Origin: Roseivirga ehrenbergii
GTDB lineage: Bacteria; Bacteroidota; Bacteroidia; Cytophagales; Cyclobacteriaceae
Assembly (NCBI RefSeq): GCF_001593005.1
Contig: NZ_LQZQ01000045.1
Span: 310,001 to 374,000, forward strand
DNA: 64,000 bases
Direction: 5' to 3'
Part shown: piece after piece, positions 1,934-6,498 of the stretch
How positions within the stretch are numbered: position 1 is the stretch's first letter
Layout: the number at the start of each line of letters is the position of its first letter
Made by a program: the position numbers and the translations under genes
The notes under the pieces: model-generated
Told to the model about the DNA's origin: nothing
Database searches by the model: none
What the model saw: only the letters and a program-made list of their open reading frames with translations

Positions 1934-1946
1934 AGGGAAGGGTTAA

Positions 1947-2047
1947 GTACGAGACCCGTACGGCAGGTGGTGGCGTCTATGCTGAAGCTTCAGCGCAAGC
2001 ATGTGAGAGGCGCACCGTGGGCTTATGGCCTACGGACGTCTATTCGA
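1947..2047 (+). mobile_element. Probable 3' end remnant of a group II intron (domains V-VI)
   Basis: The stretch contains GAGACCCGTACGG, GGTGGTG, TGTGAGAGG and a stem closing into GTCTATTCGATT. I recall this order from the domain V/VI 3' termini of group II introns in Bacteroidota and other bacteria. About 28 bp with a perfect 14-bp palindrome (GCTGAAGCTTCAGC) separates GGTGGTG from TGTGAGAGG, so the domain is probably degenerate. No intron-encoded reverse transcriptase lies upstream, so this is a fragment. Its end abuts the stop codon of the reverse-strand nuclease-NTPase gene at 2048. The call rests on remembered consensus; covariance-model scoring was not done. Confidence 0.45.
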
Positions 2048-4522
2048 TTATGCAGGGTTTTTTTGTCTTTTTATCACTTTATCCAATCGTTCTAAGTCCT
2101 TACTTAATTTCTGTTTCAAACTTTCAACAACATCGAACATTATTGACTGGTCGTCAAAGTTCGAGACAAACTTTTTGTCATTTTTTTCCTGACTTTTAAG
2201 GTAATCTATGAAAGATTCAACCGATTCCTTTCGCTGTTGAAGATCACGATTTCCATATTCATCAGAATCAGGAAAAACATTAATTAATTGACCAAATGAA
2301 TCTTCAGCATAAATAGGAGTGTCTTGAAGAACTAAGTCTATATAGTGAAAACGACTAACTAATGATTTCAAATAGTACACGCCAACCGAGGTAATAGAAA
2401 TCATTGAGTTGGAGTCTAGTGAAGTTTCTTCTTCAATATCTTCAGTGTATTCAGATGTTGATATTAGTTTATAGTCAAACAACTCTTGAAGCTCTTCTTC
2501 AATTACATCTATTGTATAACCAGCTTTTAAGAATTGCTCCGTTACATCCCCAACTTTGAAATAGTCGTACTTTTTTGAAGACTGGCTTAAGCGATTAAAT
2601 AAATAATTTAAAATTCGTGTTTTAGTGAAATGATTGGTATTGTTCTTACTAGGGTAAAAGAGATTTATAACCTTGCTTTTACTGGCTTCATAGTAATAAT
2701 TTGAATCCAATGCGACAGATTTGAAAAATTCCCAAATCGGAATACCATCACCTACCCCATAATCAAAGGACATATACTCCGTAATCTTGGAATGGCCTGA
2801 AAGAAGAAAGCTTTTGAAATTTTCTAATCCTTGTCTAGTATTAGGATAAGAAGTTTCTTCCAAGAACTCCATGACTTCTGAGTTTTCTTTACTAAACAAA
2901 GTATCATATAAGTTTTTGAAGAGGTGTTCTAAACTTCCTTTCTGAAACTTTATACTCTTGTTTGCTGCACTCAGATTTAGTTCTTGGAAATCAAACTTTG
3001 TCATCACGTAATTAATTCTCCTTTTCAAAACTTCTCTGTAAGGAGGAGCTGTAATGTGATAAACAATTGATTGATATGCATTAAATGGTGGTTTATCTTT
3101 CCATTTGTAGAAATACCCTTCTCTTAAAGAAATAATGGATATACATTTCAAATTTCTATTTAGTCCATTACCGAGGAGAAAAACTTCCTTTTGATCTGCT
3201 TCATTGAGCTGATCTGCATTGTCAAATAGAACGCAAATTCTTTTGCTGCACTTGTGAAGCAAGTATTTCGAAATTGCCTCTAAATGTACAAGAGGGTCAG
3301 ATTGTTTTGATTCAATAAATTTTGAAACTTCTTCATCCAGCCTACTGATATCATTTACAATATGTGCCCAAACACCATCCTTCTTTTTCTCGATATCCTG
3401 CTTATATATAGTTTTTAGAATATTTAATTTCGAAAGGTTGAGTTCGGGATATGTGTTTTCAAGTTGTTCAATGATATTTTGATAAATGTACTTAGTATCA
3501 CGTATGGTTTGACTTGTATATAAGCGAAAATCTAGGTATACAAGAGGGCGATTTTTCTTTTGTTTTTTGGATAGAAGTACTTCCGTAAAATATTTAATGA
3601 AAGTAGTTTTTCCTGCACCTGCTGTACCAATCAAAATGATGGGGTCGGGCAAAACACTAGTGTCAACAAATAGCTGATCTGTTAACTGTTCATGAGTGCT
3701 ATCAGTATTTTGAACTGGAACAATTCTGCTATCAAATGTTGGTGGTGTGTCTGAAAAAATAAATCCCAGTTCAGAGTTGTATTTTTTTACGTCCTTGTTT
3801 CGTACGTAACATTCTTCTAGAATCTTTTTTGCTTCCAAGGACTCGGTGTTATAAATCTCCTCAAAAACTTTGTTGATTACAGGAATTAGATGTTGACTGA
3901 TTTGATTTCTTACTAATTCAAAATTTTTACGCTTCAGGTTAGAGTCTTTCACTATTGTCTTTCCAATATTGGACGACTTAGTAATCTTAATTTTTCCGTA
4001 TTTACCAACATACTCTCTAGAAAGTAAATCATAGAATTTGTCGAAGTTCTTTTTAATGTCTTCCAAATCTTTGAAATACAAACACTTTTGCTCTTTCCAG
4101 TCTGCACCTTGAGTGTTTGAAAATTGGCCTATAATGAATTGTGTTCCATTTGTTATGACACCGAAAGCTAATCCTCTTTCAAACAAATACTGTCTTATTT
4201 GATCAATGACATCTCTATTTCCGTCATAGATTGTTTTTGCCTTTACTTCATTACCCTTTGAAGGAAGCTTGAATTCTTGAAAGTTCTTCTTGGCTTCAAC
4301 TACGAATTGAAAAGTAGCAGTCTTTATTTCATAGTCAAAAAAACCAACTCTAACCCATCCTTCTCTTTCAATGTCAAATTCTGTCCACCCAAGAACATCA
4401 ATTATTATTTTATCAAGAATCTTGCTTCTAGTGTCAGATTCAGATAAGTCTGACTTCAAAAATTCATTCGACTTCTTCTCAAATTCAACTAGCGCTTCAA
4501 AAGATTTATCGTAGTCTGTCAT
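2048..4522 (-). CDS. PD-(D/E)XK nuclease fused to P-loop NTPase; candidate phage-defence protein
   Basis: This is an 824-residue protein. Residues 25-135 match the N-terminal domain of type I restriction R subunits (HSDR_N type): an acidic helix with TRSKILDKII and LGW, then D63, E76-A-K78 and Q108xxxY112, the expected PD-(D/E)XK nuclease motifs. A Walker A loop (GTAGAGKTT) lies near residue 299 and a Walker B-like strand (ICVLFDNAD) near 430. The C-terminal part contains a winged-helix-like region (LISTSEY to VGVYYLKSLV). There is no helicase domain, methyltransferase or specificity subunit, so it is not a classical restriction system. It stands alone in an AT-rich stretch between an intron-like remnant and an attC-like repeat, which suggests horizontal gain. 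The nuclease plus regulatory NTPase layout recalls Avs/KAP-type defence proteins; the function is inference. Confidence 0.75.
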   Translation of the reverse strand: MTDYDKSFEALVEFEKKSNEFLKSDLSESDTRSKILDKIIIDVLGWTEFDIEREGWVRVGFFDYEIKTATFQFVVEAKKNFQEFKLPSKGNEVKAKTIYDGNRDVIDQIRQYLFERGLAFGVITNGTQFIIGQFSNTQGADWKEQKCLYFKDLEDIKKNFDKFYDLLSREYVGKYGKIKITKSSNIGKTIVKDSNLKRKNFELVRNQISQHLIPVINKVFEEIYNTESLEAKKILEECYVRNKDVKKYNSELGFIFSDTPPTFDSRIVPVQNTDSTHEQLTDQLFVDTSVLPDPIILIGTAGAGKTTFIKYFTEVLLSKKQKKNRPLVYLDFRLYTSQTIRDTKYIYQNIIEQLENTYPELNLSKLNILKTIYKQDIEKKKDGVWAHIVNDISRLDEEVSKFIESKQSDPLVHLEAISKYLLHKCSKRICVLFDNADQLNEADQKEVFLLGNGLNRNLKCISIISLREGYFYKWKDKPPFNAYQSIVYHITAPPYREVLKRRINYVMTKFDFQELNLSAANKSIKFQKGSLEHLFKNLYDTLFSKENSEVMEFLEETSYPNTRQGLENFKSFLLSGHSKITEYMSFDYGVGDGIPIWEFFKSVALDSNYYYEASKSKVINLFYPSKNNTNHFTKTRILNYLFNRLSQSSKKYDYFKVGDVTEQFLKAGYTIDVIEEELQELFDYKLISTSEYTEDIEEETSLDSNSMISITSVGVYYLKSLVSRFHYIDLVLQDTPIYAEDSFGQLINVFPDSDEYGNRDLQQRKESVESFIDYLKSQEKNDKKFVSNFDDQSIMFDVVESLKQKLSKDLERLDKVIKRQKNPA

Positions 4523-4538
4523 ATTGTTCTTTTAATCC

Positions 4539-4637
4539 TGCACAACGTTAGCTATCGTTCAATTTTATGCATGATATATTTTCAATAATTTACGAAAAGT
4601 GCACGATAGCTAACCAACGGGTACTGTATAACGTGCA
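4539..4637. repeat. attC-like inverted repeat upstream of the nuclease-NTPase gene
   Basis: An 11-bp perfect inverted repeat (GTTAGCTATCG at 4547-4557; CGATAGCTAAC at 4604-4614) is enclosed by a second, shorter pair (TGCACAACGTT at 4539-4549; AACGTGCA at 4630-4637). Two nested imperfect pairs ending in AACGTT-type cores recall integron attC recombination sites, and it lies just 17 bp upstream of the start codon of the 2048-4522 gene. No integrase is in the window. A related but poorer sequence lies at 19745-19795 in the second island. Confidence 0.4.
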
Positions 4638-4919
4638 TTTTTTGAATTTTCTAGAAAAGCACAGGGGGTTAAAAAGTATATGTGTGTTTTTCTTCTCGGA
4701 AGAAAAGAATTTAAAAGAATAATTACAAGAGAAGGTTGGTTTGTAGGTAGCAATTAGTCGGCTGAGCAATTGTCACCAACACAGTCCTGAGTTTCAGCTC
4801 TAAATCCGATTAACCAATAACTAATACACCAATCACCGATTTCCCTAGTCAAGTGCAAGGCTGTGAGAGATGCTGAAACAAGTTCAGCATGACGTGCTGC
4901 GGTTGCTTTTGAGGTATCC

Positions 4920-5057
4920 GTCATTGCGAGAAATGAAACCTTGTGCTAACAAGTTTTCATGACGAAGCAATCTGCCCGCTTGGAAGTCTACTGCCCAGAA
5001 CTAATAGATTGCCGCGTTACAAAATTCCACTGCGTTCATTTTGTGCCTCGCAATGAC
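4920..5057. repeat. Dispersed palindromic element with CATTGCGAG termini
   Basis: The outer 11 bp are perfectly inverted (GTCATTGCGAG / CTCGCAATGAC). Internal matches include GAAGCAATCTGCCCGCTTG and AGATTGC, which also face each other, so the whole element could fold as a long imperfect hairpin. This consensus (CATTGCGAGG..GAAGCAATCT) is seen as an interspersed repeat in many bacteria. It is non-autonomous. Confidence 0.65.
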
Positions 5058-5353
5058 GCCTGGAGTTGGTTCTGCTGCTATTGACAGACAATATCCCGAA
5101 TACCAAGCACTAATTTTCTTGGCAGGCCTCTCCGCTACGGTCGAGGTGAAAAGGTGGGTGACCATGTCTAGCACAGACCTTAACCTCCCCACTTGGGAAA
5201 GTTTATATGAAGGCTTTTGAGTATGTGCGAAACTCTTGGAGATTCTTTGCTCCGCTCTGAATGACGTGGTATAGTTGACTTTTGCAGTAACCCCAACTTT
5301 TAACCATAAACCATAAACTAGGAACTGTTTCCTGCCCCGAGACTTCGGGGTCC

Positions 5354-5384
5354 GATTAACTGATAACTGATAACTGATAACTAA
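5354..5384. repeat. Short tandem repeat, unit AACTGAT
   Basis: About four consecutive copies of a 7-bp unit (AACTGAT) are seen, followed by AACTAAT. It lies in the repeat-rich region about 110 bp upstream of the gene at 5497. Such arrays can vary in copy number by slippage; no function is evident. Confidence 0.7.
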
Positions 5385-5496
5385 TCCCCCAATGACTAAT
5401 GACCATTGACCAAGTTTACGTCAATTGCCCTATTGAATGCCGTAAGCAAGCAGCCTAAGTTTGATTTATAATTTAGATTAAAATAGGAGGTACATT

Positions 5497-6498
5497 ATGA
5501 ATAGGAAATTATGGTTGTTTATGCTAGTCGCGATGTTTGCTGGCTTAACACTCAAAGCGCAATCAGTTGGTGAAATTAAAGTGAAAAAATTAGGACCCGC
5601 TAACCTGAATTATCGCAAGAGTCCTAAACGAGTTGCCATTTCTGATTTTCAGGTAAACTATCAAACAGCACTTACTTTAGAAGATGAGAAAAAGGGCGGA
5701 AAAATGTGGCGAGGTGGAATTAAAGGAGATGCCAAAGCCTCACTTACCGTAGTGCTCGATGGTTTGAACCCAGATGATTTGCAAAAACTGACTGACCAGC
5801 TATATGCCCAGTATGTGAATGATTTAAAAGCTCAGGGTTTTGAAATCGCTTCCATTGATGAAGTTTGGAACCACAATGCTTTTGTGAAAAACCGTGAGAA
5901 AAGATGGGAGTTAAAGGCAGGTGAAGGGCCCGAGCAGGGCAAAGCCTTTGGTGTGATTCTGACCAGACCATCTACGCAAAAGTTTGTTGTTCCGCTTAAA
6001 ACATTCGATAAGAATAAGCCAGGTATAGCCAGTTTGGCCGATTATGTAGAAGGTACCGAAAACAAAGTGGTTAACCAGAAGCGTGACTTTATTTGGAACA
6101 AAGTAGTGATTGAGGTGACTGTTTTTGAAGATGGCCAAGGCGAGATGTCTAAAACGCTAAACAGACATGCAGGTTCGGCACAGGTAAAGGTGGAAACCAA
6201 TTTTAAGGTGAATGAAGCCAGCACAAACAGATTTGATATGGGGACTTTCATGGCTCGAGGCGGAGTGGAAATCCAGGATGTTTTGGAAAGACAAAAGTTT
6301 GAGGCAGGTATGAATGCCGACAGAGATAAATTAGGAACAGATTATGGTGTTTTGAGAGTATGGAGTGTTGAAGATAGAGAGAAAACCAATTTTGCTACCG
6401 TGGTTTGCGACCCTTCTAAATACTTAAAAGGTGCTGAAATGGCAGTAGACGCATTCTTAAAATCTACTGTTCAGGAAATGGCCGCTAAAGCCAATTGA
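5497..6498 (+). CDS. Exported protein of unknown function
   Basis: This 333-residue protein begins with a clear Sec signal peptide (residues 1-22, cleavage after LKAQ). The mature part is soluble, mixed alpha/beta, with phrases such as RVAISDFQVNY that recall proteins of the CsgG/DUF799-like penicillin-binding-activator or TolB-N fold, but I cannot assign a family. It probably acts in the periplasm. The start is fixed by an unusually good ribosome-binding site (TAGGAGG at about 5484-5490, 6 bp from ATG), which is uncommon in Bacteroidota and may indicate strong translation. It stands alone; a repeat-rich region lies upstream and a 297-bp gene-free gap downstream. Confidence 0.7.
   Translation: MNRKLWLFMLVAMFAGLTLKAQSVGEIKVKKLGPANLNYRKSPKRVAISDFQVNYQTALTLEDEKKGGKMWRGGIKGDAKASLTVVLDGLNPDDLQKLTDQLYAQYVNDLKAQGFEIASIDEVWNHNAFVKNREKRWELKAGEGPEQGKAFGVILTRPSTQKFVVPLKTFDKNKPGIASLADYVEGTENKVVNQKRDFIWNKVVIEVTVFEDGQGEMSKTLNRHAGSAQVKVETNFKVNEASTNRFDMGTFMARGGVEIQDVLERQKFEAGMNADRDKLGTDYGVLRVWSVEDREKTNFATVVCDPSKYLKGAEMAVDAFLKSTVQEMAAKAN

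Follow-up and report, generated by a model that had tools for sequence, protein, structure and literature searches.

What is the function of the gene found at positions 2048 to 4522 of a 64,000-nucleotide stretch of the Roseivirga ehrenbergii genome (contig NZ_LQZQ01000045.1, positions 310,001 to 374,000; hereafter the window)? In this work we have used sequence, structure-model and genome-context comparisons to address this question. The gene product combines in one chain an HsdR-type PD-(D/E)XK nuclease with a predicted ORC/Cdc6-like AAA+ ATPase and a winged helix, and it probably serves in phage defence by some mechanism. We lean, with some hesitation, towards a mobile single-gene anti-phage defence protein that is triggered by nucleic acid.

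Domain architecture and fold assignment

An earlier note on this DNA had proposed a nuclease fused to a central Walker A/B NTPase and followed by a winged-helix-like C-terminus, and this layout is borne out by the fold and the conserved residues of both domains (Table 1). In two alignments, A1 (15 rows) and A2 (22 rows), no variation was observed at D63, E76, K78 and Y112 of the nuclease motifs named in that note, nor at E28, the Walker A and Walker B residues or R563, which by its position we take to be sensor-2-like. The remaining motif residue, Q108, is Q in 15/15 rows of A1 and 13/22 of A2, and R467 is R in 14/15 and 20/22 rows, respectively. The fold search with the nuclease domain returned HsdR and type IIG nuclease folds, and the D...(D/E)xK residues sit on the fold expected for the HsdR branch of the PD-(D/E)XK nucleases.

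Table 1. Positions in the window of the gene, its domains and motifs, and the site that contains it
Feature	Coordinates	Strand	Basis or remark
Whole gene, 824 amino acids plus stop	2048..4522	minus	single open reading frame
N-terminal HsdR-type PD-(D/E)XK nuclease domain, residues 1-176	3995..4522	minus	
Catalytic motifs D63, E76-x-K78, Q108-x3-Y112	4187..4336	minus	conservation counts
ORC/Cdc6-like AAA+ region, about residues 207-620	2663..3904	minus	fold matches
Walker A, residues 299-306	3605..3628	minus	
Walker B region, residues 431-438 (D434-N-A-D437-Q)	3209..3232	minus	
R563, invariant	2834..2836	minus	22/22 alignment rows
Winged-helix-like region, about residues 621-731, borders approximate	2330..2662	minus	residues 211-731 aligned with Cdc6 1fnn
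C-terminal helical tail, residues 732-824	2051..2329	minus	DSSP of predicted model
Variable spot containing the gene, between flank genes 902-1933 and 5497-6498	1934..5496		content differs in G734, G735, G741

The class of the NTPase probably has to be corrected. The earlier note saw a resemblance to Avs/STAND and KAP-type proteins; in the fold search of the predicted model ORC/Cdc6 ranked first, and the AAA+ region precedes the winged helix in the ORC/Cdc6 topology, with only three helices beyond residue 731. Judged from this model, the NTPase appears closer to ORC/Cdc6-type AAA+ proteins than to STAND or KAP; we set KAP aside as its class and regard STAND as the less likely one. The KAP family PF07693 was not listed for the window protein and reached 16.0 and 16.9 bits in two relatives, against a cut-off of 20, while the best row in the viral library was a KAP-named protein (E 2.7e-5) despite ORC/Cdc6 topping the fold search. 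With the window protein, the Pfam matches AAA_22 (1.9e-5), NACHT (1.2e-4) and HSDR_N_2 (1.8e-3) were all below cut-off, and the NCBIfam match orc1/cdc6 (1.5e-5) was far below it; no convincing match was obtained among PDB sequences, and the PDB profile searches gave mostly P-loop matches.

PADLOC 2023 offers no strong model for an HsdR-type nuclease joined to an AAA+ of ORC/Cdc6-like type and a winged helix. In PADLOC 2.0.0 the window protein matched mad8 (8.4e-5, residues 276-542) and nine relatives gave at best 1.9e-7, to a cold-shock model; a strong match over the whole protein to a model of a catalogued defence system was absent for all of them. C-terminal additions are present in three of the eight relatives scanned, as cold-shock domains in L017 and L018 and an S1 domain in L019. 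Such OB folds (oligonucleotide/oligosaccharide-binding folds) usually bind nucleic acid; the window protein carries neither.

Distribution and genomic contexts of the family

Relatives are scattered. They were found in 4/395 genomes of the class survey (one a fragment) and 6/395 of the phylum survey (one partial), the window's own genome counted in both, in 29 of 72,556 plasmid records (19 with coverage of at least 80%), in at least 29 viral contigs and, over most of the length, in 8 of 5,426 E. coli genomes. When the window protein was the single query, no relatives were retrieved from the genomes or the viral contigs. In a tree of 43 rows, midpoint rooted and with a letter-composition warning that covers the window row, starred branches force the six rows from the window's phylum into four separate positions; these comparisons suggest that the family has moved between phyla.

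The phage-defence candidacy raised in the earlier note gains from where these relatives reside, since the contexts include a P2 hotspot, Rac-like prophages and an island with Avs4. The note had named two findings that would speak against its reading, homologues confined to non-defence contexts and a predicted nuclease fold without the D/E-x-K geometry, and neither was obtained. At the P2-like sites L036 (gpA partial), L037, L038, L039 and L041 the gene lies between gpA and the portal gene gpQ, whereas at L040 only gpA, and at L007 only gpP and gpQ, are found; the gpA-gpQ hotspot accounts for 6/29 viral loci among the matches listed, plus L007. According to Rousset et al., anti-phage systems have a hotspot at this locus (PMC9122126). 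The L007 record (LR134124.1) is labelled as a Klebsiella plasmid; judging by the rpsU, dnaG and rpoD genes that it contains, it resembles a chromosome fragment. In Rac-like prophages the gene is an antisense single-gene insert between DUF977 and DUF1367 genes in 4/4 full-length E. coli loci fetched, and in L028 (E. coli) the inserted gene is split in two frames. Some part of a query made of the insert plus its flanks matched in 4,641/5,426 E. coli genomes, and most of it in 8. At a fifth locus, L029, a partial, more distant relative lies beside IS1 in a prophage region that we take to be Qin-like. The closest relative by identity (38-40%), in G240, has a full-length Avs4 on one side and a PDC-S37/Hhe-like helicase-nuclease on the other. 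Other loci add a Tmn adjoining the Paracoccus plasmid relative (L015), methyltransferase and endonuclease neighbours (plasmid locus L012), an N-6 methylase (plasmid locus L022), an Mrr-type endonuclease 1.1 kb downstream (L031), and, in G073, an integrase-like gene plus a SIR2 protein at a distance of about 4.8 kb. A PADLOC tally of 118 neighbours at 24 of the 29 viral loci listed (all except L039, L040, L051, L056 and L059) gave 24 families, mostly methyltransferases, with one Tin and one ZorD; ten candidate loci were checked for the Tin neighbour and none held it.

The window's own site is also variable. The flank genes recur with different content in G734 (95% and 99% identity), G735 and G741, so the window gene is an insert in a variable spot; its GC content is the lowest in the window, and the recent acquisition proposed earlier is supported. 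Between the flanks, G734 has TetR, SDR and DoxX-like genes and a 667-amino-acid open reading frame, and G735 has frames of 237 and 93 amino acids. In G741, where the region is rearranged, the flanks are about 11 kb apart, and the interval includes a protein (L101:10706-11647) in which an NYN nuclease domain is joined to a cold-shock domain. The other cargo at this site is not clearly defence-related.

Comparison with known systems

NTPase-gated nucleases are already known in defence. Compared with HsdR of type I restriction (3h1t; EcoR124I 2w00), the window protein has an ORC-type AAA+ in place of the helicase motor, the central P-loop region being modelled as ORC-like. Neither hsdM nor hsdS was noticed by eye near the gene, among open reading frames of at least 100 amino acids leftward and at least 60 amino acids up to window position 12 kb, and the earlier opinion that this is not an ordinary type I system stands. 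Unlike the Cdc6/ORC initiators (1fnn), the protein carries an N-terminal nuclease and is bacterial mobile cargo. BREX BrxC and RADAR RdrA are parts of multi-gene systems and lack a fused HsdR-type nuclease. GiPD474, a Gifsy prophage defence ATPase, is a ParA-like protein of a different family (PMC12724215), and the CoCoNuTs pair cold-shock domains with McrB-type GTPases, unlike the ORC-like AAA+ described here (PMC11090510). The DefensePredictor systems (PMC13092281) may include this family. In searches of literature outside subscription journals and supplements, no description of the family was recognised.

Proposed mechanism and alternative explanations

Because relatives ride prophages and plasmids, and several occupy known sites of anti-phage genes, the gene is probably a single-gene phage defence. 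In our proposal, the ORC/Cdc6-like AAA+ and winged helix would use ATP to engage the invading phage's nucleic acid; the probable target is DNA in some abnormal state, for instance an intermediate of replication. This engagement would assemble or switch the protein, and the HsdR-type nuclease of the same chain would then cut DNA, either that of the phage or the entire DNA of the cell. Context and site comparison show the gene to be a mobile cassette, carried by prophages and plasmids and present at variable spots of chromosomes. A more specific version, in which a replication-initiator-type AAA+ was repurposed as an immune sensor of phage origins or replication intermediates and licenses the nuclease, is attractive and doubtful; if true, this would be a one-gene, methylation-free restriction in which self and non-self are told apart by replication state.

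Several observations weigh against a nucleic-acid-triggered defence. The trigger is something that we infer, and the fold reading rests on a model with a pTM (predicted template modelling score) of 0.65. Defence-type neighbours occur at only 3/20 plasmid loci fetched (of the 29 plasmid records), most of the others having insertion sequence, integrase or replication genes as neighbours, and by eye none was seen at G656, G516 and G620. In the PADLOC tally, made without a control set, no neighbour family recurred in a second member. The P2 hotspot also houses non-defence genes (PMC9122126), the genes that G734 carries at the site of the window gene do not resemble defence genes, and 0/50,697 phage records matched.

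What else could such a protein do? An Avs/STAND-like action, in which a phage protein is sensed, ATP-driven oligomerisation turns on the N-terminal nuclease and the infected cell is killed, is rather unlikely, a little more so than the origin-sensor version: a nuclease-like effector, an NTPase and residence in a defence island are shared with Avs4 and other Avs/STAND proteins, whereas the window protein lacks their long C-terminal sensor, its NTPase is nearer ORC and PADLOC gave no Avs match. We consider it improbable that the gene instead serves mobile elements, in a selfish or maintenance role such as competition between elements or help in replication or transposition. Against this stand the placements in the P2 hotspot and the Avs4 island, the lack of any relation among the sites occupied on prophages, plasmids and chromosomes, and the absence, in the contexts that were read, of a transposase or rep gene as a constant partner; a transposon helper of the TnsC/TniB type was rejected for want of such a transposase. 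Least probable is a type IV restriction enzyme that would recognise modifications in phage DNA and use the AAA+ as motor or clamp. The HsdR and type IIG nuclease folds, the lack of any methylase noticed in the window and the annotation of one relative as 'Predicted type IV restriction endonuclease' would fit it, but no modified-base binding domain was identified and the top fold rows do not mark the AAA+ as McrB-like.

A lone nuclease-AAA+ gene that occurs in several phyla and on both plasmids and prophages would give the defence catalogue one more family, and one would then ask by what means an ORC-like ATPase distinguishes phage from host DNA. Since E. coli has natural copies in Rac-like prophages, the proposal is immediately testable.

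Further features of the locus and a possible partner gene

The left flank gene (902-1933) is in two frames in the window and in one frame of 339-344 amino acids in G734, G735 and G741. Just beyond the 3' end of the family gene lies a GC-rich block (1935-2047), a second, incomplete copy of which is present on this contig. A group II intron end was considered for the block and rejected, as Rfam had no match there; no reverse transcriptase was recognised beside it. Upstream of the gene there is a 20-nucleotide inverted repeat (4547-4614), of which no good second copy was found in the genome.

In the sister clade of the window in the tree (L031, L032 and L035), a 160-amino-acid gene lies directly upstream of the family gene at 3/3 loci (L031:7405-7887, L032:7450-7944 and L035:7445-7921; 34-41% identity among them). 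The family thus consists mostly, but not invariably, of lone genes. No copy was detected by tblastn in the other loci compared or in the window, nor was any PDB match found; we take its product to be Panacea/SocA-like, as a candidate only. By eye, a hairpin and a run of T separate this gene from the family gene in L032 and L035.
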